Assembly: GCF_018919395.1 (NCBI RefSeq)
Contig: NZ_JAHLME010000004.1
Span: 124,001-188,000 of the forward strand
Length of the DNA: 64,000 bases
Reading direction: 5' to 3'
DNA from: Geomonas azotofigens
GTDB lineage: Bacteria > Desulfobacterota > Desulfuromonadia > Geobacterales > Geobacteraceae
The translations under genes and the position numbers were made by a program. Shown here one piece after another: positions 49,378 to 62,622 of this stretch. The notes beneath the pieces were generated by a model that worked only from the letters and a program-made list of their open reading frames with translations, was not told where the DNA came from and made no database searches. How positions within the stretch are numbered: the first letter of the stretch is position 1; each line of letters starts with the position of its first letter.

Positions 49378-51366
49378 CTATGCCAGTTTGAAGCGCCCCA
49401 CGATCTGTTGCAGTTCAGTGGCGAGGGCCGACATGTGAGTAGCCGCCTTGGCGGTCTCGTGGGCGCCCCCCGCCGTCTCCGATACCACGTCGGTGATGGT
49501 GCCGATGTTGGCCGTGATCTCGCCGGTGACCGCCGTCTGTTGTTCGGCCGCGGTGGCGATCTGGTGGATCTGCGAGGTGAGCTCGCTGATGGCGTTCATG
49601 ATGTCATCGAGCGCTTCGCCCGAGCGACGCGAGCTTTCCATCCCCGATTCGACCTCCTGCACGCCGAGCCTCATGCTCCCCACGGCGCCACTGGTGTCGC
49701 TCTGGATCGCCTTGATCATGGCGCCGATATCCTTGGTCGCCCGCGTGGTCCTCTCCGCCAGCGCGCGGACCTCGTCAGCCACCACCGCGAAGCCCCGCCC
49801 CTGGTCTCCGGCCCGGGCCGCCTCTATGGCCGCGTTCAGTGCGAGGAGGTTGGTCTGGTCGGCGATGTCCTCGATGGTCCCGACGATGGCGCCGATCTCA
49901 TCGGAGCGGGTCCCCAGGTCCTGCACGGTCTGCGCGGATTCTTTCACACGCTCCGCGATCTTCTGCATGCCGACCAGGGTCTGCTGCACCACCTGCGCGC
50001 CGCCGCGGGCGGTGTCGCTAGCACGGTTGGAGGATTCCGCCGCCTGGGAGCAGTTGCTCGAGATGTCGTTGGAGGTGGCACTCATCTCCTCGCTGGCCGT
50101 CGCCACCGTCCCCGACTGCGCGGCCACCTCCTCGGCGGCGGTCGCGATCTGCACCGCGGTCGCGCTCAACTGCTGGCACGAGACGGAAAGCTGGCCGGTG
50201 TTTCGGGAAAGTTGTGAGACGATGCCGTGCACGTTGTCGATGAAGCGGTTGAACCAGGTGCTCACCTCGCCCAGTTCGTCCCTGCGCCCGACCTCGAGCC
50301 GCCTGGTCAGGTCTCCCTCCCCCTCGGCGATGTCCTTGAGCATGCCGAGCATGCGGTTGAGCGGGCGGGTGATCCCCAAAGAGATGAAGACGCCGAGAAG
50401 GCAGGTGCCGAGGCTCGCGACGCCGGCGAAGACCAGGCTTAGAACCAGGGTGAGCCGCGCGTCGTGGGCCAGCCCGCCGGCGGTCGCCAGGATCTCCTTG
50501 GTAAGCACATCCTCGACCTGTTTCATGATGTCGATCTTCTCGGTGATCACCGGGAACCAGCTTTCGGCAGGGATGCCGAAGTGGCCGGAGAGCCCCTTGG
50601 AGAGTACGGCGCCCCTGATCTCCTCGACCTTGCCGAATACCGGGGCTTTCGCTTTCTCCTCGTAGGCCGCGACCGCCTGTGGGGAGGCGAATTTGCGGAA
50701 CAGGTCGAGGTAGTCCTGCTGGGCAGCCAGGATGGTCATGGTCCGCTGCAGTTTCTCCTGGTCGAGGACATCCGCCGCGAGCACCGCGTTCAAGGCCGCC
50801 CGCTCCTTCCCGGTCTCCTCCTTGGCCTTCACGAAGCTGTAGTAGGCGGTGGCCTGGCGCATCACCTCGCGCTTTCCGCTGGTGGTGGCGACGGCGGCCA
50901 CCACGTCCATGTACGAGTTGATCAGGCCGGTGTAGAAGGTGTAGGCCTGGGTCCCGGTGACCTGGAGGGTGTCAATCCCGGCGCGGGTCTCCTTCAGCCT
51001 CGCGATGGCGCCTGCCGCCGCGTCAAGGCTCGTCTGCACCACCGTCACCGACCCCTGGTTCTTCTCCAGGAAACCTGCCACCACCTCGATCTCCTGGTCC
51101 ACCTTGGTGCGCTGGCCGGCGAGTTCCTCCTTGAATTTGCCACCCCTGGCGTTGAGGTAGCCGGAGGTGTAGCCTCTCTCCTTCTGGATCTGGTGCGACA
51201 GTTCCCCTACCTGGACCGCGAGGGCGGTCAGCTTCTGGGTCTTGACCAGCCCCTGCAGGGCGGCATAGTCCTTCTTCGCGTTGTACACCGAGAACACCAC
51301 CATCCCGAGCACCGGGACGGCGATCATCAGCAACAGCTTGGTGCGGATTTTCAGATTCTGAAACAT
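49378..51366 (-). CDS. methyl-accepting chemotaxis protein with NIT sensor domain
   Basis: A 662-residue chemoreceptor. The frame is open far upstream; AAGGAAGG lies seven bases before the ATG at 51366 and the membrane segment follows at about 9-30, which fixes the start. The periplasmic domain (about 35-310) is NIT-like ([20 protein letters not shown]), a helical bundle linked to nitrate/nitrite sensing. TM2 about 318-342, HAMP about 343-395, then the signalling helices with the conserved tip [20 protein letters not shown]. No tethering pentapeptide for CheR is seen at the end (GRFKLA). Confidence 0.93.
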
Positions 51367-51812
51367 GGTCATTCCTTCCTTCGCGAGGGGTTCTCCAGCC
51401 TCTATTCCCGCGCCAGGGCGCGACTGGCGGCGCATTGGGGGGCGGCATGTCTGCCTGCGTTTGATTTTCGTTTTCAACCTATCGACGGGGCGGGCGTGGG
51501 ACTTTAGCGGAATTTGTCCGGGAGCGGCTACGGCGATGGGAATGATGGGAATGACGGGAGTCGTGGGAATGATGGGAGTCGTGGGAGTCGTGGGAGTCGT
51601 GGGAGTCGTGGGAGCTGGAGATGGCCCAGACGGCAGATGGCAGGCGGTTGGCGGTTGGCGGTTGGCGGCAGTAGGGGGGCAGGGGAGGGCAGGGGGGGGC
51701 AGGGGAGGGCCGAGTTGGACTGCGGTTGCGGTTGCGGTTGCGGCGGGGCTACAAAAAAAGCCGCTGCTCCCGGTCAGGGGGCAGCGGCTTGATGAGACGG
51801 TGGACGGCGGGC
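51367..51812. other. low-complexity intergenic region
   Basis: About 440 bp without a gene. 51539-51612 is a run of 9-bp GGGAGTCGT-like units (about eight, the first ones GGGAATGAT/GACG variants); 51645-51672 has GCGGTTG repeats of 7 bp, 51680-51712 G-rich blocks, and 51718-51745 GGTTGC repeats of 6 bp. Four different short repeats lie side by side. Confidence 0.75.
51753..51790 (-). terminator. terminator of the hpt-permease operon
   Basis: A perfect 10-bp stem AAGCCGCTGC/GCAGCGGCTT with a 13-base loop and seven T residues (five beyond the stem pairing) on the reverse strand, 22 bp after the permease stop codon. Confidence 0.92.
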
Positions 51813-53123
51813 TTACTTGGCGCCGAACAGGAAGTAGGAGAGCGAGAGCAGGGCGAGGACCCACATGCCGCCTTTCATCTCCTTGATACGGCCGGTGGCG
51901 CCCTTCATGAGCGGATAGGCGATGAAGCCGGCGGTCATCCCCACGCCGATGTTGTAGGTAAAGATCATCAGCACCACGGTCAGGAACGCGGGGATCAGCT
52001 CGGTGAAGTCGTCGAAGTCGATCTTCGCCAGCGGGCTGATCATGTAGGAGCCGATCACGATCAGGGCGATGCCGTAGGCGTGCGCCGGGACGATGGTGAA
52101 CAGCGGCGCGAAGAAGAGCGCCAGCAGGAAGAACAGCGCGGTGACCAGGGCGGTGAAGCCGGTGCGGCCACCTTCCTCGATGCCTGCCGCGGACTCGATG
52201 TAAGCGCCGGTGGTGGTGGTGCCGAGCAGCGGGGCGGCGACGGTGGCAAGGGCGTCGGCCAGCATCGGCTTCTCGATCTCGGGGAGGTTGCCGTTCTCAT
52301 CCAGGAGGTCGGCGCGCATGGAGAGACCGAGCAGGGTGCCGACGGTATCAAGGAACGCCATGATGAAGATGGTCAGGATGATCGGGAAGAAGCTCGGGTT
52401 GAGCGCGCCGGCGAAGTCGAGCTTGAACAGGATCGGGGTGATGTCCGGCGGCATGCTCACGAAGGATTGCGGCAGCGGGGTCACCTTGAGGATGATGGAG
52501 GCGATGGTGGTGACCACGATGCCGATCATCATGGAGCCGAGCACCTTGCGGGAGATGAGCACCACGGTGAAGAGGAGGCCGAAGACGGCCAGGAGCACGG
52601 AGGGCTGGGACAGGTCACCAAGTTTCACCGGCGCGCCGGGAACCCCCAGCACGACGATCCCGGTTTCGTTGAGGCCGATGAAGGTGAGGAACAGGCCGAT
52701 GCCGGTGGCGAAGGCGCATTTGAGCGACAGCGGGATGGACTCGGCGAGCCAGCTCCGGACCTTGAACAGGGTGAGCAGGGTGAAGATGACGCCGGCGAAG
52801 AAGACGGCGGCCAGCGCGGTCTGCCAGGAAAAACCCATGACCTTGACCACGACGAAGGCGATGAAGGCATTCTCGCTCATGTAGGGGGCGATGGCGAAGG
52901 GGCGGTTGGCGAAAAAGGCCATCAGCACGGTGCCGAAAACGGCGGCGATGATGGTCGCGGTGGTGGAGGGGCCGCGCGGGATGCCGGCGTTCTCGAGGAT
53001 GGCCGGATTGACGATGATGATGTACGCCATGGTGAGGAAGGTGGTGAGACCGCCGATGATCTCGCGCTTCATGCTGGTGCCGTAGCGTTGGAACTGGAAG
53101 AACGTGGCTATACGGGAGGTCAT
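51813..53123 (-). CDS. purine permease, NCS2/AzgA type (guanine/hypoxanthine)
   Basis: A 436-residue transporter with twelve to fourteen membrane segments. [20 protein letters not shown] near the start is the AzgA/PbuG signature, and [20 protein letters not shown] the conserved substrate-site loop in the second half. The frame is open upstream to 53195, but the ATG at 53123 overlaps the stop of hpt (ATGA) and has GGAG upstream. Together with hpt it forms a purine salvage operon: uptake of hypoxanthine/guanine and direct conversion to nucleotides. Confidence 0.93.
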
Positions 53124-53677
53124 TGCTCGTTTTGCTCCTTCATTGCGTAGAGTGCGGGCAGATTGCGCCAGTATCCCGCTATGTCCATGCCGCACCCGAA
53201 CAGGAAGCGGTCTTCAACCTCGAGCCCGACGAAGTCGGCCTTGGCGCCGGGGGCCTTCCTGTCGTGGATCTTGTCCACGAGGACGGCGGTGTAGACCTCG
53301 GCGGCCCCCTCCTCCCGGCAGTACTTGGTGATCTCGGCGAGCGTCACCCCTTCGTCGAGGATGTCGTCGATCAAGAGCACCGTGCGCCCCTTCAAGGAGC
53401 GTTCCGGCTTCACCTTCCAAAGCAGGTTGCCACCGAACATCTCCGCGCCGTAACGGGTGGCATGGAGGTAATCCAGCTCGAGGGCAAAGGGGAGCTTATC
53501 CACCAGTTTGCCGGTCACGAACAGCCCGCCGTTCATGATGCAGAACGCGACCGGGTCGCTCCCCGCCAGGCGCTCCGCGATTTCCCGCGCCATGCGTGAC
53601 AGCGCCTCCTCGACTTCCTGCTCCGACCTCAGACAATCCGCCTTCTGGCGAATGTCCTCCATGTCTTTGAGTACCAT
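53120..53677 (-). CDS. hpt: hypoxanthine-guanine phosphoribosyltransferase
   Basis: A 185-residue type I phosphoribosyltransferase. The PRPP-binding loop is VLLIDDILDEGVTLAEI, the flexible-loop region follows FALELDYLHATRYGAEMFGG, and the base-binding segment VDKIHDRKAPGAKADFVGLE is typical of HGPRT with the Lys and Asp at the purine. It transfers phosphoribose to hypoxanthine or guanine in the cytoplasm. AAGGAG precedes the start. The stop overlaps the start of the purine permease, so both are co-translated. Confidence 0.95.
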   Translation of the reverse strand: MVLKDMEDIRQKADCLRSEQEVEEALSRMAREIAERLAGSDPVAFCIMNGGLFVTGKLVDKLPFALELDYLHATRYGAEMFGGNLLWKVKPERSLKGRTVLLIDDILDEGVTLAEITKYCREEGAAEVYTAVLVDKIHDRKAPGAKADFVGLEVEDRFLFGCGMDIAGYWRNLPALYAMKEQNEQ

Positions 53678-53816
53678 TTCCGCTCCTTCGGAACATTTGT
53701 TTAAAGCCGCCGAACCATATCAGATTTGTGCTGTGAAAACAAGTAATTGTGCTTTCATTAGCTGGGCCTGCCCGTATACGGGTTGGGAGGGGGCGCCGCG
53801 TGGGCTCGAGGCGGGT

Positions 53817-55388
53817 TCAGGGGAGAAATTCGCGTTCCAGGGCCTTGCGGTCGATCTTGCTGTTGGAGGTGACCGGGAGGGTCGGGCGGCAGATGATCCG
53901 CTCCGGAATCATGTACTTAGGGAGGTGCGCGCCGCACAGGCCGATCAGGTCGGCCGTCTCCAGGGCCGCGCCCTCTGCGTGGGAGACATAGGCCACGATG
54001 CGGCTGCCGGTCAACTCGTCCGGGATGGCGATGACCGCCGCCTGCCTGATGCCGGGGTGACTGTTGAGGACAATCTCGATCTCGTCCAGCTCCACCCGGA
54101 AGCCCTTGCTCTTCACCATGTGGTCCTTGCGCCCGGCGAAGACGAAGTTGCCCTCGGCGTCCAGGCGCACCAGGTCGCCGGTCCGGTAGACGCGGGCGTG
54201 GCTGGCGGGGTTGCGCGGGTCGGGGCTGAAGTGGGCCGCCGTGCGCACGGGATCGTTCCAGTAGCCAAGGGCCACGGTGGCGCCCAGCACGTGCAGTTCT
54301 CCCTCGCGCCCCGGCTCGGTCACCACCTCACCCGCCTCGTCGACGGCGAAGACCTCGAAGTTGGGGAAGGGGCTCCCGATCGGGATCTTCCATGCCTCCC
54401 GCGGCAGCTGCTCCGGCACCCGGAAGAAAAGCGAGGAGTTGGCCTCGGTCTGGCCGTAGATGTTGTAGAAAGCGGCCGCGGGCATGAAGCGCTTCAGGAC
54501 CCTCAGGAATTTGACCGGCATGATGTCGCCCGAGAAATGCACCAGGCGGAGCTTCGGGAGGGTGAGCCGGTCCAGCGCCCCCTGGTCGGCGAGCTTGGTG
54601 AGTACCGAGGCCACCGAGTTCCATACCGTGATCTCCTCGCGCTCCAGGAATTCGGCCAGCCGCACCGGGAAGGCCGAGAGCGCCTCCGGCACCAGCACCA
54701 GGGTGGCTCCCCCCCTGATGGCGCAGAAGATGTCGAATATGGAGAGGTCGAAGTGCAACGGCGCGTGGTTGGCGAGGCGATCCGCCGCTGCGATGGCGAA
54801 GAACTCGCTCGCCATCTCGACGAAGGTGAGCGCGTTCAGGTGCGAAATCACGACCCCTTTGGGAGAACCGGTGGAGCCGGAGGTGTGCAGGATGTAGGCG
54901 GGGGAGGCGCCGCAGACCTCGGGCGCGGGGGGGGCGCAGCCGTGCCGCTCCAGGTCGTGCCAGGGGATCTGCTCCACCCCGAAAATAGCGTCGCCGGCAA
55001 GGGTCACCACCGCCTTTTTCAGCGGCAGGGCGTCACCCCCTTCCGCGAGCAGCCGCTCCAGCTGCGGGCCGGAGGCGATGGCGAGGCGTATGCCGCAGTG
55101 GTTGATGATGGAGCGAAGCCGCGAGGCGGGGGAGGCGGGGTCGAGGGGGACGTAGACGCCGCCGGCCTTGAGGATGCCGAAGAGGGCGACGATGCCCTCG
55201 ATGGACTTGTTCAGCAGGATGCCGACGCGGTCGCCGCGCCTGACGCCGTGGGCCGCCAGAAGGGCCGCCAGGCGGTTGCTCGTTTCCTCCAGCTCGCGAT
55301 AGGAGAGCCCCCGCTCCTTGCACAGAACCGCCCGCTTGTGCGGGAACGCCGCCGCGCTTTGGGTCAGCAGCTGCTGCAGCAGGTACAT
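53817..55388 (-). CDS. stand-alone amino-acid adenylation enzyme (NRPS A-domain type)
   Basis: A 523-residue enzyme of the ANL superfamily. A3 is YILHTSGSTGSPKGV, A4 HFDLSIFDIF (its Asp is the residue that holds the amino group of an amino-acid substrate), A5 NIYGQTE, A7 YRTGD, A8 GRKDHMVKSKGFRVELDEIE and A10 NSKIDRK with the catalytic Lys. Reading the pocket by hand gives D-L-F-N-V-F-I-S-S-K, which fits no code I know. It should activate an amino acid and load it onto the carrier protein at 58947-59204. It ends 18 bp after the dehydrogenase gene upstream. Confidence 0.92.
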   Translation of the reverse strand: MYLLQQLLTQSAAAFPHKRAVLCKERGLSYRELEETSNRLAALLAAHGVRRGDRVGILLNKSIEGIVALFGILKAGGVYVPLDPASPASRLRSIINHCGIRLAIASGPQLERLLAEGGDALPLKKAVVTLAGDAIFGVEQIPWHDLERHGCAPPAPEVCGASPAYILHTSGSTGSPKGVVISHLNALTFVEMASEFFAIAAADRLANHAPLHFDLSIFDIFCAIRGGATLVLVPEALSAFPVRLAEFLEREEITVWNSVASVLTKLADQGALDRLTLPKLRLVHFSGDIMPVKFLRVLKRFMPAAAFYNIYGQTEANSSLFFRVPEQLPREAWKIPIGSPFPNFEVFAVDEAGEVVTEPGREGELHVLGATVALGYWNDPVRTAAHFSPDPRNPASHARVYRTGDLVRLDAEGNFVFAGRKDHMVKSKGFRVELDEIEIVLNSHPGIRQAAVIAIPDELTGSRIVAYVSHAEGAALETADLIGLCGAHLPKYMIPERIICRPTLPVTSNSKIDRKALEREFLP

Positions 55389-55407
55389 GAATCCCTCCGT
55401 GTCGCCT

Positions 55408-56556
55408 CTAGAGCCCGAGGAAGGTCGCGATGATGTTTCTCTGGATCTCGGAGGTGCCCGAGTAGATCTTGCCGGCGATGGCGTCGCGCAGGTTGCGTTC
55501 GAAGTCGAATTCGGTGGAGTAGCCGTAGGCGCCGTGTATCTGCAGCGCGTCGGTTGCGTTTTGCACGTAGCTCTCGCTTATGAAGAGCTTGGCCATGGCC
55601 GACTCCAGCGGCGCCCGCCGACCGGCGCTCTTCAACCCCGCCACCCGGTGCAGCATGAGGCGGGAGAGCTCGGTACGCAGCTTCATGTCGGCGATCTTGT
55701 GCGATACCGATTGGCACTTGCCGATGGCCTGGCCGAACTGGCGCCGTTGCCGGGCGTACTCCACGCATTCCTCGAGGATCTTCTCCATCGCACCCAGGTG
55801 GGCGGCGAAAAGGCAGCTTCTCTCCCATTCCATCTCGGCGTTGAAGATGGCGGCGCCGCTCCCCTCGGATCCCAGACGGTTTTCCTCGGGGACCTCGCAA
55901 TCCGCCAGGAACACCTCGCCCAGAGGGCAGGTCCTAAGCCCCATGGTATCGAGGGGGCGTCCCACCGAGAAGCCGGGCGTCCCCTTCTCCACGATGAAAG
56001 CGGAGATGCCGGCGAACCCCTTGCCGGGGTCGGTGACCGCGAAGACCAGCAGGATGTCGGCGATGGGCGCGTTGGTGATGAAGGTCTTGGAGCCGTTGAG
56101 GAGGTAGCGGTCCCCACGCTTCTCCGCCCGACAGCGCATGCTGAAGGCGTCCGAACCCGCCTCGGGCTCGGTCATGGCGTGCCCACCCTTGATCTCTCCG
56201 GTGATGAGCCTCGGGAGGTACCGCTGTTTTTGCGGCTCCGTTCCAAAGCGGTTGATGGGGGATTCGCAGGTCCAGATGTGGGAGTTGAGCGAGAAGATGA
56301 GGCCGCTGTCCCGGCAGGCGTAGCCGAGCCCCTCCATGGTGGCCACCGCGGTCATGGTGTCCAAACCGAGCCCGCCGTACTCCTCGGGCATGGTGATGCC
56401 GGGGATGCCGAACTCGGCGCACTTGCGCCACCCCGCCTCGGAGAACTCCCCCCGCCGCTCCCGCTCCTTGGCGCCCGGGTTCAGCTCCCGGCGGGCGAAC
56501 TCGATGGCCATCCGCTTGAAGTTTTCCTGCTCGGTGGTGAAGGTTGTCGGCTCCAT
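55408..56556 (-). CDS. acyl-CoA dehydrogenase-like flavoprotein (PltE/IVD-like)
   Basis: A 382-residue flavoenzyme. The ATG at 56556 (GAGGCGCAC upstream) is preferred to the longer frame. The FAD segment is MTEPEAGSDAF, and the last strands FITNAPIADILLVFAV and LQIHGAYGYSTEFDFERNLR are normal for the family. The usual catalytic Glu in the IYEGT motif is Ser here (IYSGTSE), while E245 in MEWERSCLF lies in helix G, where isovaleryl-CoA dehydrogenase and the prolyl-carrier dehydrogenases keep theirs. It is therefore likely to oxidise a carrier-bound amino acyl group, not a fatty acyl-CoA. Confidence 0.9.
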   Translation of the reverse strand: MEPTTFTTEQENFKRMAIEFARRELNPGAKERERRGEFSEAGWRKCAEFGIPGITMPEEYGGLGLDTMTAVATMEGLGYACRDSGLIFSLNSHIWTCESPINRFGTEPQKQRYLPRLITGEIKGGHAMTEPEAGSDAFSMRCRAEKRGDRYLLNGSKTFITNAPIADILLVFAVTDPGKGFAGISAFIVEKGTPGFSVGRPLDTMGLRTCPLGEVFLADCEVPEENRLGSEGSGAAIFNAEMEWERSCLFAAHLGAMEKILEECVEYARQRRQFGQAIGKCQSVSHKIADMKLRTELSRLMLHRVAGLKSAGRRAPLESAMAKLFISESYVQNATDALQIHGAYGYSTEFDFERNLRDAIAGKIYSGTSEIQRNIIATFLGL

Positions 56557-56585
56557 GTGCGCCTCGCAGGGCCGGTGCCGGCCCG

Positions 56586-57242
56586 CTACAGGGTGAGCAG
56601 CAAAGAGGCGGCGCCGTAATGGGAGGGGACGCCCGCCTCGAGTTTCAGCACGTCGAAGGTCAGTATCGAGATGCGCTGCAGATCCTTGACCCCCTCGATG
56701 TAGGCCCGCCGGGTCGGCTCGTCCAGGGCCTTTCTCATCCCGGAACAGGCGTAGAAAAGACATTTCAGGGGGCGCTGCTCGGCCGGCAGCAGGCAGCCCC
56801 GCTCGCCCAGGTGCCCGCAGCGGGAGTCCGTCGCGCTCGCCGGGGCCGGGGGGGAAGGCCGCGCCGTGGCCAGCCGCCACGCCGAAGCGAGCCTGGCCCC
56901 GTAGTAACGGTGCAGCGGCGGCGCGCTCCGCGTGGCGAAGTCGCGGACCTCGTGAGGGGTATGCCGCCGCAGCCAGTAATCTATGGCCGTGAAGTAACGC
57001 TCGGAAGGTTCACGACAGCAGGCGCCCCGGCAGTCGAAGCAGCGGGCGAAGCCGGGGAGGTTCAGCGCCACGATCCGCCCCTGGCAGGCGATGCGGTCGC
57101 GGTTGAGCCGGTCCAGGGCCTCGCGGGCCCGCTCCGAGAGCTCGTGGTCGCGCTCCAGCAGCGGGTGGCTCAGGCTGGAGACCCGCTGGAAGATCCGGTA
57201 CCGTCGGGAAAAATGCCAAAAGTCCTCGAGATCCCTGTACAT
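56586..57242 (-). CDS. YkgJ-like cysteine-rich protein
   Basis: A 218-residue protein. Cysteines fall in two clusters: CFDCRGACC (about 67-75) and RCGHLGERGCLLP plus KCLFYACSG (about 140-170), like the zinc/iron-chelating YkgJ family. The middle (YFTAIDYWLRRHTPHEVRDF) is helical. A metal cluster is probable. The family has no settled function, but small iron-binding oxygenase-like or regulatory roles are suggested by context. It lies 20 bp after the ureohydrolase-like gene and 29 bp before the dehydrogenase. Confidence 0.72.
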   Translation of the reverse strand: MYRDLEDFWHFSRRYRIFQRVSSLSHPLLERDHELSERAREALDRLNRDRIACQGRIVALNLPGFARCFDCRGACCREPSERYFTAIDYWLRRHTPHEVRDFATRSAPPLHRYYGARLASAWRLATARPSPPAPASATDSRCGHLGERGCLLPAEQRPLKCLFYACSGMRKALDEPTRRAYIEGVKDLQRISILTFDVLKLEAGVPSHYGAASLLLTL

Positions 57243-57262
57243 GGCGCGCCCCCGCCGGACGG

Positions 57263-58249
57263 TCAGGCCCGGTCCCTCTTGCGCTGGGCGACGCCGGAGA
57301 GGGCGTAGATCAGGGCCCAGGCTGCCAGGTGCGAGGAGTAACCCTGCGGGTCCTGCCCGGGGTAGACCTCGACGAAGTCCAGCCCGTCGATGCCGGAACG
57401 CCCTATGGTCTGCAGCGCCGGCAGGAGCTCGTTGGGCAAAAGCCCGTTGAAATCGGCGGGGCCGCCGGGATTGTAGCCGGCATCGATGCAGTCGCTGCAG
57501 ATGGTCACGAAGACGTGCCTGGTTTTCTCGTGGGCGATCGCTATCGCCTCCTCGGTCACCTCGGTCATGCCGCGCTGGTGGATTTCCCTGGTGGTGAAGA
57601 TGCGCGCACCCATGCTGCGGGCATACTCGTACTGCGCCGGGGAGTTGCGCGGCCCCCTGATCCCCATGTGCACGATGCTCTCCTTGCGCACGTGGGGGAG
57701 TTGCGCGATCCGGTGCAGCGGTCCGCAGCGCGCGAACATGTCGGCGCCGAAGGACTTGGCGTTGTCGAGGTGGGCGTCGAAGTGGATGATGCCGATTTCC
57801 CCCCGGCCCGACTCGCCGAGCGCCTTGACGATCTCGGGCGTGAAGGAGTGGTCGCCGCCCAGGACGAAGGGGATGCTCTGGCTGCGGTAGACCCCGAGCA
57901 TCGCCCTGTGCACGTTGGCCATGGTCTCCGCCGGGTCGTTCGGGTTGACCGGGATGTCCCCCATGTCCCCCAGTTGCAGGTGGTCGAACAGGTCGATCTC
58001 GTACTCGGGGAGGAAGCCGCCGTAGCGCGCCGAGGCGTGCCTGATGCTGCGCGGCGCCAGCTCGCAGCTGCTGAAGGAGCCCCAGGTCACCGTTCCCTCC
58101 CAGGGGACCCCGGCCACGATCACGTCACGGCCCGACGGCAGGTTGCGGGCATCGACCACCGGGACGCCGAGGAAGGAAGGGGTATCGCCGTAGACCCTGG
58201 GGAGCGAGGCTTTCCGGTTGGGAACCATCGGGATCTCTTTGCTGTTCAT
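57263..58249 (-). CDS. ureohydrolase (agmatinase/arginase) family protein with altered metal ligand
   Basis: A 328-residue member of the ureohydrolase family, which cleaves guanidino groups using two Mn ions. Metal ligands found: H134 in LGGDHSF and the FDAHLD motif at about 158-162. The third motif, normally SxDxDxxDP, here reads TICSDCIDAGYNP: D253 is in place but the bridging Asp two residues before it is replaced by C251. The enzyme may use a different metal or substrate, or be inactive. It is embedded in the carrier-protein cluster, so a guanidino or amidino group on the product is conceivable. Confidence 0.87.
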   Translation of the reverse strand: MNSKEIPMVPNRKASLPRVYGDTPSFLGVPVVDARNLPSGRDVIVAGVPWEGTVTWGSFSSCELAPRSIRHASARYGGFLPEYEIDLFDHLQLGDMGDIPVNPNDPAETMANVHRAMLGVYRSQSIPFVLGGDHSFTPEIVKALGESGRGEIGIIHFDAHLDNAKSFGADMFARCGPLHRIAQLPHVRKESIVHMGIRGPRNSPAQYEYARSMGARIFTTREIHQRGMTEVTEEAIAIAHEKTRHVFVTICSDCIDAGYNPGGPADFNGLLPNELLPALQTIGRSGIDGLDFVEVYPGQDPQGYSSHLAAWALIYALSGVAQRKRDRA

Positions 58250-58273
58250 GGCGGCTCCTTTGGCCTTTCGCGC

Positions 58274-58924
58274 CTATGCCGGGCGTTGGCCGGTAACGTG
58301 CAATTTCTTTGTCAGCAGCAGGCGGGTAGCCCTGACTCGGTCCAGTTCGCGCCAGCGCAGGGTCCGGTGCACCCAGAGCGCCGGGAGGTTGTCGGCCCAG
58401 AAAAAGCCGTAGGCTTTGGTGATTCCCCTTTTTTTCAGCAGGTGCAGCGCGCCGTTTTGCAGCGCCGCGGCCACGTTCCCTCCGCGGTGCGCGGGATCGA
58501 CGAACATGTCGAAGGTGTAGGCCTCCCCGCAGCGGCACTCGATGCCGAGCCACGCTTCGTCGGGATGGTTGCCGGGTGCCCCGCCCTGCCGGCTGTCGGC
58601 GCACCAGATGTCCCCGGCCACCGTGGCCCCCTTCACCAGCGCGAAGCCGCGGTACCCCCGCCCGAGATAGCTGAGCGCCTTCAGGTACCTGCTCTGGAAC
58701 CGGTACACCAGGCGCCGCTCCGCGAGCAGCTGCGCGCTCAGCTCCACGACCGCCTCGTCGGCCGGACGGTTGAAATCGGACACCGGGCGCAGGGAGTCGA
58801 GCGCGATCTCCACCGGCACCGCGACCCGGTTCAGGTAGAACATGTCGCGCAACAGGGTGCGCCACCCGCCGATCTGGACCATGTCGCGGGCCTGGACCAG
58901 CCGCATCTTGCAGTACTGAAGCAT
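58274..58924 (-). CDS. GNAT-like acyltransferase
   Basis: A 216-residue protein. The C-terminal half shows the GNAT core: YTFDMFVDPAHRGGNVAAAL (strand 4 and the acyl-CoA pyrophosphate loop, with HRGG in place of the usual QGxG), LLKKRGITKAYGFFWADN (strand 5 region) and ALWVHRTLRWREL (strand 6/7). The N-terminal half has the IEC-RCGE segment and no known motif. It could transfer an acyl group from a CoA or from the carrier protein. It lies between the carrier protein and the ureohydrolase gene, 22-24 bp from each. Confidence 0.75.
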   Translation of the reverse strand: MLQYCKMRLVQARDMVQIGGWRTLLRDMFYLNRVAVPVEIALDSLRPVSDFNRPADEAVVELSAQLLAERRLVYRFQSRYLKALSYLGRGYRGFALVKGATVAGDIWCADSRQGGAPGNHPDEAWLGIECRCGEAYTFDMFVDPAHRGGNVAAALQNGALHLLKKRGITKAYGFFWADNLPALWVHRTLRWRELDRVRATRLLLTKKLHVTGQRPA

Positions 58925-58946
58925 CGTTCCCCCAGCGCCCGCCCCG

Positions 58947-59204
58947 CTATACCTTGGCGCCCAGTTTGAAGTTTATGAACTGCGCCACGGCCGATATGGT
59001 CTCAAAGTGCTCCGGGACTATCTCGGTGTCCGCGATCTGCAGGTCGAATTCCTTTTCCAGGTAGGCGATCAGTCTCTGCACCCCCAGCGAATCCACGATT
59101 CCCTTGTCTATGAGGGAGTCGGATGGGGAAAGGCTGGCTTTGCCGCCGGGACCCGCCATCTCCTTTTCTATGAACGACCTGATGGTGTCGGTGTAATCGG
59201 CCAT
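58947..59204 (-). CDS. acyl/peptidyl carrier protein
   Basis: An 85-residue carrier protein. The phosphopantetheine site is S39 in IVDSLGVQRL, and the helices before and after it have the acidic pattern of ACP/PCP proteins (FIEKEMAGPG at the start and DTEIVPEHFETISAVAQF in the third helix). AGGAGG precedes the ATG. It is the first gene of the reverse-strand cluster and is probably the site where the adenylation enzyme loads its amino acid. No phosphopantetheinyl transferase is seen in the window. Confidence 0.9.
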   Translation of the reverse strand: MADYTDTIRSFIEKEMAGPGGKASLSPSDSLIDKGIVDSLGVQRLIAYLEKEFDLQIADTEIVPEHFETISAVAQFINFKLGAKV

Positions 59205-59443
59205 CTTTTCCTCCTTTGTCAGGTGCGTGGGGGCGCCGGCTGTATCGGCGGTGCAGCCGCGCGGCCTGGGAACTGCGCTCGGGGGAGCTCCGGCGCCGAG
59301 GTGAATGGTTGGTGTTCAATAATGACAGAATTGTAATTTTTGGCACGCCCCCTAGTGTACAATTGCACCTTTGGCTGTCAAGGGCGCCGCGTCAGGCTTC
59401 TTTTTTGTTCCACAGGCGCGGTCAAAGATGCTACCTTGGCGCA

Positions 59444-61123
59444 ATGTCGTGGAAGATCATCGAAAGAAAGCGGACCCTCCTCTCCGGCGAGAGCGGCCCC
59501 GGGCGCGCCAAAAGCGGCGGGAGACTCTCCTGCTGCCTGGTCTACCCCAACCGCTATCACTCCGCCATGAGTAACCTCGGTTTCCAGGCCGTTCACGCGA
59601 TGCTCAACGCGCAGGCCGAAGTCACCTGCGACCGCGCCTACCTGCCGGACCGGGATGAACTCGAGGAACTGCGCCGGACACGGGGGACGCTGCTGTCATT
59701 CGAGGGGGAGCGCCCGCTTTCCTCCTTCGACCTGGTCGCCTTCTCCATCTCCTTCGAGAGCGATTACCTGAACCTTCCCGCCATCTTCAGGCTGGCCGGG
59801 ATCGATCCCTACGCCGCGCAGCGGTCCCCCCTGCAACCGCTGGTCCTGGCCGGTGGCGCCGCCCTTTTTCTCAATCCCGAGCCGGTGGCGCCGTTTCTGG
59901 ACCTGGTCTGCATCGGCGAGGCGGAGCCGACCCTTCCACCCCTGCTGGAGCTGTTGAAGCGGGGCGCGGCGTCGCGGGAGGAGCTGCTCCTCGAGGCGGC
60001 GCGCCTTCCCGGGATCTACGTCCCCTCGCTCTACCGGCCGGAGTATGACGGTGCCCGCCAAGTCGCCTTCACCGCTTCTCCCGGTGCCCCCGCCCGGGTG
60101 CGCCGCGTCTGGGACCCCGATCCCGACAGCCGGCCGACCGTCACCGAGATACACACCGATGCCACCGAGTTTTCCGGGATGCACCTGGTGGAGATCTCCC
60201 GGGGCTGCCCGCGCGCCTGCCGTTTCTGCGCCGCCGGGTTCATCTATCTCCCCTACCGGACCCGCTCGACCGAACTCGTGCGCAGCGAGGTGCTCAAGGG
60301 GGTGGCTCAGGGAAGGAAGGTGGGGCTCGTGGCGGCGGCGGTCTCCGACTACGCCGGCATCGGCGAACTCTGCTGCGACATCGTCGCCGCCGGGGGGAAG
60401 TTCTCGGTCTCCTCCTTCCGCATCGACCACCTGGACGGGCGCATGATCGAGGCACTGAAGGCGAGCGGCCAGAAATCGGTGGCGCTCGCGCCCGAGGGGG
60501 GCTCGCAGCGGTTGCGGGACCTGGTCAAAAAGGGGATCGACGAGGATCAGATCCTGGCGGCCTGCGACATGCTGGTGAGCCACGACATCCTGAACCTGAA
60601 GCTGTACTTCATCATCGGGCTTCCCACCGAAACCGCCGAGGACCTGGAGGAACTGGTGGCGCTGGTGAAGAAGATCCGCGAACGGGTCGTGACCGCGGCC
60701 AAGGAGAACCGGCGCCTGGGGGAGATCCAGCTCTCGGTGAACCCCTTCATCCCTAAGCCGTTCACCCCCTTCCAGTGGTGCGCCATGGAACCGGTCAAGT
60801 CGCTGGAGAAGAAGTGGAAGTTTCTGCAGAAGGAGCTGGGGCGGCTCTCCAACCTGAAGCTGCAGATGGAGAGCCCGCGCGAGGCGTTCCAGCAGGCGCT
60901 CCTGTCTCGCGGCGACCGCAGGCTGGCGGAGCTCTTGGTGGCGGCCGACCGGTTGGAGAACTGGAAGGAGGCGCTGCGGGAGTGGGAGCTTGACGCCGAG
61001 GCGCTGGTGAATCGGGATATAGCGCTGGAGGAACTCCTTCCTTGGGACTTCATCGATGGCGGCGATACGGAACGGTTGCGGCGGGAGTACCGGAAGGCGT
61101 TGGGGGAAAACGTTGGCGGGTAA
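59444..61123 (+). CDS. B12-binding-type radical SAM protein
   Basis: A 559-residue radical SAM enzyme. The N-terminal 200 residues resemble the cobalamin-binding fold found ahead of such domains (LVYPNRYHSAMSNLGFQAVH and later PLVLAGGAALFLNPEPVAPF). The cluster motif is CPRACRFC in SRGCPRACRFCAAG; the following SAM-binding parts include YRTRSTELV and LAPEGGSQRL. TFFIIGLPTE-like text KLYFIIGLPTETAEDLEELV is conserved too. No good ribosome-binding site is visible before the ATG at 59444, so the start is uncertain. It is divergent from the carrier-protein gene across 240 bp. The reaction is unknown. Confidence 0.88.
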   Translation: MSWKIIERKRTLLSGESGPGRAKSGGRLSCCLVYPNRYHSAMSNLGFQAVHAMLNAQAEVTCDRAYLPDRDELEELRRTRGTLLSFEGERPLSSFDLVAFSISFESDYLNLPAIFRLAGIDPYAAQRSPLQPLVLAGGAALFLNPEPVAPFLDLVCIGEAEPTLPPLLELLKRGAASREELLLEAARLPGIYVPSLYRPEYDGARQVAFTASPGAPARVRRVWDPDPDSRPTVTEIHTDATEFSGMHLVEISRGCPRACRFCAAGFIYLPYRTRSTELVRSEVLKGVAQGRKVGLVAAAVSDYAGIGELCCDIVAAGGKFSVSSFRIDHLDGRMIEALKASGQKSVALAPEGGSQRLRDLVKKGIDEDQILAACDMLVSHDILNLKLYFIIGLPTETAEDLEELVALVKKIRERVVTAAKENRRLGEIQLSVNPFIPKPFTPFQWCAMEPVKSLEKKWKFLQKELGRLSNLKLQMESPREAFQQALLSRGDRRLAELLVAADRLENWKEALREWELDAEALVNRDIALEELLPWDFIDGGDTERLRREYRKALGENVGG

Positions 61124-61128
61124 TACCT

Positions 61129-61239
61129 CCCTCTCCCTTTGGCAGTGGGCCGGGTGAGGGAGATGGAGACGGCCGTGGAGCGAGGACTTACTTCGTGGCT
61201 ACGCCCTCCCCCCTGACCCCTCTCCCGGGGGGAGAGGGG
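61129..61239. repeat. C/G-rich intergenic repeat with hairpin
   Basis: The part around 61129-61171 (CCCTCTCCCTTTGG...GGGTGAGGGAG) resembles a repeat widespread in many bacteria, and 61217-61239 is a 10-bp perfect stem CCCCTCTCCC/GGGAGAGGGG. It lies between two convergent genes and may stop transcription from both sides. Confidence 0.65.
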
Positions 61240-61273
61240 AAGGGCGGGAAATTGATCCTGCTTTCGCGTTGGT

Positions 61274-61861
61274 TTAGTTGAAGAAGAACCTCGCGCCGAC
61301 CGTGAAGGAAAGGGCCGAGGGGTCGAACTTGCCGGTCCCGTTGGGGCCGTCCACATCCGCCTTGAAGGCCTCGACACCTTTCACCTCGAGGTTCAGGGCC
61401 ACCTGGCGGTTCATGAAGCAGTCGATACCGCCGCTTACGTGGGCGCCGACGGCGGTGTTGGTGTACTTCTTGTCCAGGTCGTTGATGAGCACGTCGATAC
61501 CCGCGCCGACGTAGGGGACCACGTGCTGCCGGCCGGGGAAGCGGTACTGCGCCCCGACGGAGACGTCGGTCACGTCGGCGTCGCCGAAGCTGGACGCGTC
61601 GAAGGTGGTGCGGCTTACCTCCATCTCGACGGCGACGTTGTCGTCGACGCCGAACAGGAAGCCGAGCCCGCCGGTGAGACCGGCGTCGGTGGAAACCACC
61701 ATCCTGCCGTTTATGGTGTCCACTTCGGACTCGGCCGGGTTGCTCACGCCGATCTTGCCGCTAACGGCGATCCTGCCTCTGAGATCTTCCGCGGAGGCGT
61801 TCCCCGCCAGGGGTGCCGCCAGGAGCAGCGCCGCCGCGCAGAGCAGTAACATCTTACGCAT
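61274..61861 (-). CDS. OmpW-like outer membrane beta-barrel protein
   Basis: A 195-residue outer membrane protein. After the signal peptide (KMLLLCAAALLLAAPLAGNA) there are alternating strands of about ten residues, as in an 8-stranded barrel: GLTGGLGFLFGVDDNVAVEM, VSVGAQYRFPG, VVPYVGAGIDVLI, and the last strand ALSFTVGARFFFN, ending in an aromatic residue as the Bam machinery expects. GGGAGGG precedes the ATG at 61861; longer frames exist but have no basis. Such OmpW-like barrels carry small hydrophobic compounds. A long-loop terminator/attenuator lies directly upstream. Confidence 0.85.
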   Translation of the reverse strand: MRKMLLLCAAALLLAAPLAGNASAEDLRGRIAVSGKIGVSNPAESEVDTINGRMVVSTDAGLTGGLGFLFGVDDNVAVEMEVSRTTFDASSFGDADVTDVSVGAQYRFPGRQHVVPYVGAGIDVLINDLDKKYTNTAVGAHVSGGIDCFMNRQVALNLEVKGVEAFKADVDGPNGTGKFDPSALSFTVGARFFFN

Positions 61862-61878
61862 AATCTGTGTTCCCTCCC

Positions 61879-61949
61879 AAAAAAAGCGTTCATGAAACAG
61901 CGGCATCTTAAGTGAAAACGGCGCACTGTTCAAGCCCTAATGAACGCTT
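61879..61949 (-). terminator. long-loop hairpin with T-run ahead of the OmpW-like gene
   Basis: AAGCGTTCAT and ATGAACGCTT (10-bp perfect pair) enclose 46 bases, with an inner AACAG/CTGTT pairing, and are followed on the reverse strand by seven T residues. It ends only 18 bases before the start of the OmpW-like gene, right at its ribosome-binding site. It may terminate elbB or attenuate the OmpW-like gene. Confidence 0.6.
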
Positions 61950-61965
61950 CAAAGGGGAGTGATCG

Positions 61966-62622
61966 CTACTTGATCAGCTCCAGGGTGGCCTTGATGGCCT
62001 TCTCGATCCCCTTGCCCGCCTCGGCGATGCCTCCGGCCAGCATGTAGGCGGGGGTCGAGACGATCAGGTTGTCGCGGTCGATGACGCACTCGGTGGCGGC
62101 GCAGTCGACGTGGCTGCTGCCGGTGCCGTTGATGGCCTGGGCGGTGCCGGCGTCGTTGCCGATGGTGAGCTTCGGGGCGAGGTCCTTGCCCAGCGCGAGG
62201 GCCACCACGGCCGGGGCGATGCAGATGGCGCAGATCGGCTTTTTGGCCGCAGCCATGTCCCGGATGAGCTTGAGCACGTCCGGCTGGACGCTCCCCTTGG
62301 AGCCATCGAAGGCGAAGCTGCAGAGGTTCTTGGCGGCGCCGAAACCACCGGGAAGGACGATGGCGTCGAGCTCTTCCGCCTTGGCGGTTTTCACGTCGGC
62401 GATGTCACCGCGCGCGATGCGCGCCGCCTCGACCAGCACCCTCCGCTTGGCCCCGGTGTCCTGCATGGTCAGGTGGTTCACCTCGTCCAGCTCGATGTCG
62501 GGGGCGAGGCAGACCGCCTTCGCGCCGCTGTTGTCGATGGCGAGCAGGGTCAGCACCGCCTCGTGGATCTCGCTTCCGTCACGCACGCCACAGCCGGAAA
62601 GTATTACGCCTATCTTCTTCAT
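61966..62622 (-). CDS. elbB: isoprenoid biosynthesis glyoxalase ElbB
   Basis: A 217-residue DJ-1/PfpI-fold protein. KKIGVILSGCGVRDGSEIHE is the start of ElbB, the nucleophile Cys is in ICAICIAPAVVA, and LPGGFGAAKNLCSFAF matches the family as well. ElbB has glyoxalase activity and is named for an effect on early isoprenoid synthesis. AGGAGG precedes the ATG at 62622; the longer frame starting at 62685 has no support. Confidence 0.93.
   Translation of the reverse strand: MKKIGVILSGCGVRDGSEIHEAVLTLLAIDNSGAKAVCLAPDIELDEVNHLTMQDTGAKRRVLVEAARIARGDIADVKTAKAEELDAIVLPGGFGAAKNLCSFAFDGSKGSVQPDVLKLIRDMAAAKKPICAICIAPAVVALALGKDLAPKLTIGNDAGTAQAINGTGSSHVDCAATECVIDRDNLIVSTPAYMLAGGIAEAGKGIEKAIKATLELIK

Follow-up and report, generated by a model that had tools for sequence, protein, structure and literature searches.

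A six-gene carrier-protein operon of Geomonas azotofigens that may transfer a desaturated, proline-type acyl group to an amine

What does a bacterium make with an operon in which a free-standing carrier protein and a stand-alone adenylation domain (A-domain) are joined to a flavoprotein of the acyl-CoA dehydrogenase (ACAD) type, a GNAT-like enzyme and a ureohydrolase, and how does the product leave the carrier? The question is raised by a six-gene run on the reverse strand of contig NZ_JAHLME010000004.1 of Geomonas azotofigens (GCF_018919395.1), within a stretch of 64,000 nucleotides (positions 124,001 to 188,000) that is called the window here. A first-pass annotation had proposed a pathway to an amino-acid-derived natural product and had left the release step open. 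Our preferred answer, to which we give a probability of about 0.5, is desaturation on the carrier followed by transfer, by the GNAT protein, to an amine that is often an amino sugar. The features of the locus, in window coordinates, are:

58947..59204, reverse strand: free-standing carrier protein, 85 amino acids; PP-binding 27.9 bits (cut-off 20.8), phosphopantetheine Ser39 in a DSL motif
58274..58924, reverse strand: N-acyltransferase of GNAT fold (from the predicted model), 216 amino acids, proposed release or transfer step
57263..58249, reverse strand: ureohydrolase of the arginase family, 328 amino acids, with a metal-ligand Asp replaced by Cys251 (the Cys-Ser-Asp or CSD form); PF00491 209.5 bits (cut-off 22)
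56586..57242, reverse strand: Cys-rich protein, 218 amino acids, with eight invariant Cys in an alignment of six orthologues
55408..56556, reverse strand: ACAD-like flavoprotein, probably of the prolyl-carrier dehydrogenase type (NF045652, 4irn, tree), 382 amino acids
53817..55388, reverse strand: stand-alone amino-acid A-domain (TIGR01733), 523 amino acids, pocket code DLFSHSISSK
59354..59381, reverse strand: promoter-like site TTGACA-16-TACACT upstream of the carrier gene, 10 of 12 consensus positions
53784..59396, no strand: block absent as a single piece from three congeners (empty sites), edges to about 20 bp

All six open reading frames were found on the reverse strand (53,817–59,204) in the order first described, with intergenic gaps of 22, 24, 20, 29 and 19 bp with the chosen starts, within the 18–30 bp given before. 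The ACAD start at 56556 was the choice of the gene caller, the longest mechanical frame beginning at 56880. The ACAD N, M and C domains were all above the Pfam cut-off, AMP-binding reached 279.8 bits (cut-off 29.9), and Ser39 did not vary across the 15 carriers that were aligned. The earlier labels of carrier protein, flavoprotein and ureohydrolase were upheld. By Pfam, no condensation, ketosynthase, thioesterase or exporter gene was present among the six, which agrees with the lack of condensation and thioesterase domains noted previously. An ornithine-lipid OlsH/OlsI carrier protein (NF052616; PMC12493201) was rejected, the window carrier scoring 41.2 bits, far under the 130-bit cut-off.

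The six genes are one unit, because three congeners lack the whole block and because a single conserved promoter-like site stands ahead of it. Ten cluster-free genomes were tried, and the flanking phosphoribosyltransferase gene was found at the limit used in three (G033, G034 and G036). In 3/3 of these, window positions 53,784–59,396 were cleanly missing, and the flanking hypoxanthine phosphoribosyltransferase and radical SAM genes adjoined directly. The TTGACA-16-TACACT site was the sole promoter-like match in 6.1 kb (0.5 expected), and both of its boxes were invariant in seven of seven loci. A dyad resembling ATTACA...TGTAAT (59,321–59,338), clearest in the Geomonas relatives, lies just downstream of this site and could be a candidate repressor site. 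A palindrome, CCCGTATACGGG (53,771–53,782), was seen upstream of the phosphoribosyltransferase gene; the six-gene block starts right beside it, and it is kept at all three empty sites, slightly altered in one. Known RNA elements were not detected at gathering score in 52000–62000.

The neighbourhood was shown to be conserved well beyond this strain, in other Geobacterales. The gene order of the window is repeated in Geomonas paludis, diazotrophica, anaerohicana and propionica and in Citrifermentans bremense; a locus filed as Geobacter sp. UBA9964 (L024) holds the complete cassette except for the Cys-rich gene; and the core appears again within Geobacterales and at two loci from metagenome-assembled genomes labelled Myxococcota. 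Among 141 Geobacterales genomes, the ureohydrolase (counted at E up to 1e-40) was present in 17 and a tight ACAD (a match at 3.4e-227 or better) in 23. Both were found in 16 genomes, the ACAD only in seven, the ureohydrolase only in one and neither in 117 (Fisher P = 8e-15, uncorrected for relatedness). Genome G058 (7.1e-146) was not counted as having a tight ACAD, though its locus (L060) was read. The ACAD lay within 1.5 kb of the ureohydrolase in 16 of the 17 ureohydrolase-bearing genomes, and in the remaining genome (G073, locus L018) the contig ends inside the ureohydrolase gene. From the seven ACAD-only genomes four loci were opened (L050, L051, L052 and L061), and G084, G086 and G091 were left out. 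The carriers of L025, L028 and L029, missed by a simple gene caller, were located by tblastn.

The A-domain was confirmed as a stand-alone enzyme of the amino-acid type, since it scored 370.3 bits with the amino-acid adenylation model TIGR01733 (cut-off 317.4). On family scores a fatty-acid ligase was rejected, as was an exosortase-A-associated ligase (TIGR03098), at 341.9 bits against a cut-off of 592.35. PltF/PltL/PltE of the pyoluteorin pathway and PigI/PigG/PigA of the prodigiosin pathway are prolyl-carrier desaturation trios, and PltF was the top-scoring single A-domain entry for the window protein (314 bits). Its pocket code was read against the PheA positions, in what we take to be the PheA pocket numbering, and was compared through printed alignments with 6o6e and 7thn, taken here to be PltF and PigI, respectively. 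The code of the window enzyme is DLFSHSISSK; the alignments gave DLLSLALVC for PltF and DLFSIAWVC for PigI. The pattern DLFS-[HLI]-S-[ILV]-SSK was found in 15/15 ureohydrolase-bearing loci, with His in 12, and the first letter D and the last letter K were kept in 24/24 rows. L051 and L052, which have no ureohydrolase, showed a code identical to that of the window. Further codes were DMFSLAMSSK (L050 and L061), DMFSLGVGSK (L060) and DIFHIGSMCK (L055), while the Brasilonema code (L056) was identical to that of PltF, and Streptomyces clavuligerus (L053) and Microvirga (L054) shared DLFSLALVCK.

The proline code of PltF or PigI was thus not found in the window A-domain, in which positions 301, 330 and 331 are Ser; it seems to share the lineage of the proline enzymes, Ser having replaced the residues at these three positions. 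Since they differ from both solved proline enzymes, what can be said from the pocket is that the substrate is probably proline or proline-sized, and no finer claim is made. The trio proposed by the first-pass annotation was therefore sustained at family level (ACAD, similarity to PltF, free carrier) but not for proline itself, as the pocket differs at at least three positions. Judged from family and pocket, the A-domain would adenylate proline, or else an amino acid of its size and slightly greater polarity, and load it onto Ser39.

For the flavoprotein, the top NCBIfam model was the L-prolyl-carrier dehydrogenase NF045652 (442.6 bits, under its cut-off of 650), followed by prodigiosin PigA (442.1 bits, cut-off 500) and acryloyl-CoA reductase (335.6 bits). 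The best solved relative was the prolyl-ACP dehydrogenase 4irn (425 bits), and a chain named butyryl-CoA dehydrogenase reached 314 bits. A 21-protein tree, with long branches flagged, split the 16 ACADs encoded beside a carrier and an A-domain from the genome's four other ACADs at a branch with 100/99 support. On this tree a catabolic dehydrogenase was rejected. The ACADs of L051 and L052 fell within the ureohydrolase-bearing group. Electron-transfer flavoprotein genes adjoin the trio in L028 (by Pfam) and, by similarity to those, in L025, L050 and L060. From its family, the flavoprotein would turn the loaded amino acid by oxidation into an acyl group of pyrroline, pyrrole or enoyl type and pass the electrons to an electron-transfer flavoprotein.

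The GNAT-like protein scored 20.4 bits in Pfam, just under the cut-off of 20.7. Its predicted model (mean predicted local distance difference test value, pLDDT, of 81.3) nevertheless showed a GNAT fold, with glucosamine N-acetyltransferases as top structural matches, and the earlier label can stand. The L054 row, a sugar transferase without GNAT, was omitted from the alignment used for the model. The setting of the relatives, annotated by Pfam for chosen genes rather than whole loci, bears on its acceptor. Outside the Geomonas/Citrifermentans group, the core was usually found among surface-polysaccharide genes. In L030 the cassette follows genes for a Bac_transf sugar transferase, a dehydrogenase, a GFO/IDH/MocA oxidoreductase, a hexapeptide transferase and a DegT aminotransferase, a set that presumably resembles the genes of a diamino-uronic acid pathway. 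Bac_transf was also found in L025 and L027, where the GNAT and sugar transferase genes adjoin, in L028 together with DegT and the electron-transfer flavoprotein, and in L054, from an alphaproteobacterial plasmid of Microvirga. GT2 was present in L026 and L031, GT4 in L060, a DegT aminotransferase with an ATP-binding cassette (ABC) ATPase in L029, and hexapeptide and FemAB-like acyltransferases in L032. L051 carries an ABC-2 exporter and a polysaccharide deacetylase, genes that L050, L052 and L061 have too by similarity. L055, from another alphaproteobacterial plasmid locus, has an annotated polysaccharide export gene and YjbH/YjbF. At this last locus a carrier, an ACAD, a methyltransferase and an A-domain lie at L055:7564-11741 on a plasmid typed as conjugative, with a pocket code unlike the others. 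Mutually related proteins of 974–1457 amino acids adjoin the trio in polysaccharide loci (L050:10139-14437, L029:2148-5072 and L061:3552-7925); the one from L050 gave no Pfam match at the limit used.

In L028, a single frame of 422 amino acids (L028:11787-13055) encodes a GNAT at residues 1–204 and a Bac_transf domain at 224–398 (205.0 bits); the fusion scored 250.3 bits with TIGR03025, under the cut-off of 295.55. This fusion and the adjacency of the two genes in L025 and L027 are the main reason for placing the acceptor among amino sugars. Because the core of the relatives sits among surface-polysaccharide genes and because of the fusion, release most likely occurs when the GNAT protein passes the acyl group to an amine, often that of an amino sugar, which offers a plausible answer to the point that the first-pass annotation had left open. 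Going by fold, fusion and neighbourhood, the GNAT protein would move the acyl group from the carrier, as donor, to the amine and so free the carrier. The acceptor in many relatives is probably an amino sugar for a surface polysaccharide, which in Geomonas would be encoded elsewhere.

Some observations favour instead a diffusible natural product of small size that would bear a unit resembling pyrrole or dehydroproline and that the GNAT protein would cap or release. No sugar gene was found among the nine annotated neighbours in the window; the family scores point to a trio such as serves pathways of the pyoluteorin and prodigiosin type; and two related trios have settings that look like those of nonribosomal peptide synthetases (NRPS), in Brasilonema near an NRPS gene and in S. 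clavuligerus between further A-domain-like genes, both on plasmids. Such a product is nevertheless unlikely in our view. The six genes lack the assembly, release and export functions listed above, and the first proposal of a diffusible product, though in line with the trio logic at family level, is weakened because the core keeps company with polysaccharide genes in many relatives, which point more to modification of surface glycans. The literature searches turned up no paper that describes the cassette or that places a carrier-linked trio of proline type at polysaccharide loci.

The ureohydrolase raises two further explanations. It was rejected as a standard agmatinase, with 104.5 bits against the TIGR01230 cut-off of 174.3. 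A standard guanidinase was rejected as well: in an alignment with 7esr, which we take to be a guanidinase, the His and Trp of that protein face A173 and P264 of the window enzyme. The guanidinase GdmH requires His222 and Trp313 (N. inopinata numbering; PMC11410670). The same source lists H182, D207, H209, D211, D299 and D301 as metal ligands of the N. inopinata guanidinase; on this basis the window enzyme retains H134, D158, H160, D162 and D253 and has Cys251 at the equivalent of D299. Cys-Ser-Asp was found at the altered site in 14/14 proteins, namely 12/12 cassette members and both stand-alone relatives, and Asp occupies the Cys251 position in three ordinary proteins of agmatinase type encoded on a Mesorhizobium plasmid.

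The stand-alone relatives came from a search of 395 genomes across the phylum, in which the ureohydrolase was found at 1e-60 in five genomes, two of them (G413 and G197) outside the order. In these two, the stretches read (14.7 and 19.8 kb) contain no trio, and the top ACAD matches in their genomes reached only 1e-94 and 1e-125, compared with 3e-227 or better in the tight group. No further stand-alone CSD ureohydrolases were found in the classes of the two holding genomes, where one of three and one of 23 genomes matched, both being the ones already known. One relative (L040) has a gene for a branched-chain polyamine synthase at a distance of about 140 bp, and the other (L041) has a gene for a fusion of AdoMet decarboxylase and spermidine synthase at about 1 kb. 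As both lie near polyamine genes, a polyamine-type guanidino substrate may be the best lead for the ureohydrolase, from two cases. The source genome encodes SpeA. It also carries a standard arginase gene directly after a putative nickel-pincer-dependent ornithine cyclodeaminase gene (L059:6850-8882).

It is doubtful that the product is a polyamine conjugate, in which the GNAT protein would acylate agmatine or a different polyamine from the carrier and the ureohydrolase would afterwards split off urea at the guanidino end, leaving an acylated putrescine-type amine. The seven ACAD-only genomes have a tight ACAD and no ureohydrolase match at the limit used, the GNAT of L028 is fused to a sugar transferase, and two of the four ACAD-only loci opened (L051 and L052) carry the A-domain code of the window. 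Since these two share this code without a ureohydrolase and their ACADs nest in the ureohydrolase-bearing group, the choice of the amino acid to be loaded probably does not depend on the ureohydrolase. We hold it to be improbable that the enzyme acts on the carrier-bound intermediate, for example on the C=N of a bound pyrroline or amidine, as a new on-carrier tailoring enzyme. Its close linkage to the ACAD gene and the altered metal site in all 14 proteins would fit, but both stand-alone relatives share the altered site without an adjoining trio, and their genomes' best ACADs score far lower. Under the preferred reading of transfer to an amine, the ureohydrolase with its altered metal site would be a dispensable tailoring or supply enzyme, with a substrate that is perhaps agmatine-like. 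That the operon is an ordinary one for catabolism or polyamines, its carrier protein being there by coincidence, is very improbable: catabolic pathways often employ both the ureohydrolase and the ACAD family and many matches lie on plasmids, but the ACAD tree, the A-domain pocket, the low agmatinase score and the standard arginase encoded elsewhere beside an ornithine cyclodeaminase-type gene argue against it.

The Cys-rich protein had been labelled YkgJ-like, and this label was not borne out, as no Pfam match was obtained up to E = 10 for any of the six orthologues, across which its eight Cys are invariant. It was confined to Geomonas/Citrifermentans loci (no tblastn match in L024 or in more distant loci), its predicted model had a pLDDT of 52.3, and its profile gave nothing credible against solved structures. 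It may be a lineage-specific accessory. Further from the cassette, imperfect 9/27-base tandem repeats (51,535–51,614) were seen just upstream of a gene (49,378–51,372) for a chemotaxis receptor with a nitrate/nitrite-sensing NIT domain.

A wider proposal is put forward tentatively, and we rate it below even. Several bacterial groups may have recruited desaturation in the manner of NRPS pathways, acting on a proline-like amino acid bound to a carrier, for the decoration of surface glycans, with GNAT proteins placing the acyl group on an amino sugar (in one lineage fused to the glycan-starting transferase), together with an undescribed clade of ureohydrolases that have Cys in the binuclear metal site. 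If true, this would link pyoluteorin-type carrier-protein chemistry with the assembly of bacterial surface sugars, two areas of study with little overlap. Amides of pyrrole or pyrroline type would then be expected on the glycans of Geobacterales, bacteria in which the outer surface is important for attachment and electron transfer, and the enzymes would make up a compact, testable set. The Cys-containing ureohydrolases call into question how strictly the binuclear site is kept across the superfamily.

Compared with known systems, the window ureohydrolase shares its fold family and five of six metal ligands with the guanidinase and agmatinase branches (7esr, 9fek), and a DCIDAG stretch with 7esr; it differs from guanidinases in having Cys at the D299 equivalent (N. 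inopinata) and in not keeping the guanidinase His and Trp (PMC11410670). The flavoprotein has the prolyl-ACP dehydrogenase 4irn as its best-scoring solved relative and is encoded in a different operon. Like PltF/PltL/PltE and PigI/PigG/PigA, the window unites a stand-alone A-domain, a free carrier and an ACAD-type flavoprotein in one operon, and its code starts with DLFS as in PigI (DLLS in PltF). Unlike in those trios, Ser is found at 301, 330 and 331, no polyketide synthase or NRPS follows, a GNAT and a ureohydrolase are included in the operon, and many relatives of the core lie among polysaccharide genes. Neisseria PglB is a sugar N-acyltransferase fused to a phosphoglycosyltransferase, with a hexapeptide fold and the reverse domain order compared with L028. 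The L028 protein likewise unites an acyltransferase with an initiating sugar phosphotransferase, but its acyltransferase has a GNAT fold and would take its acyl group from a carrier protein.

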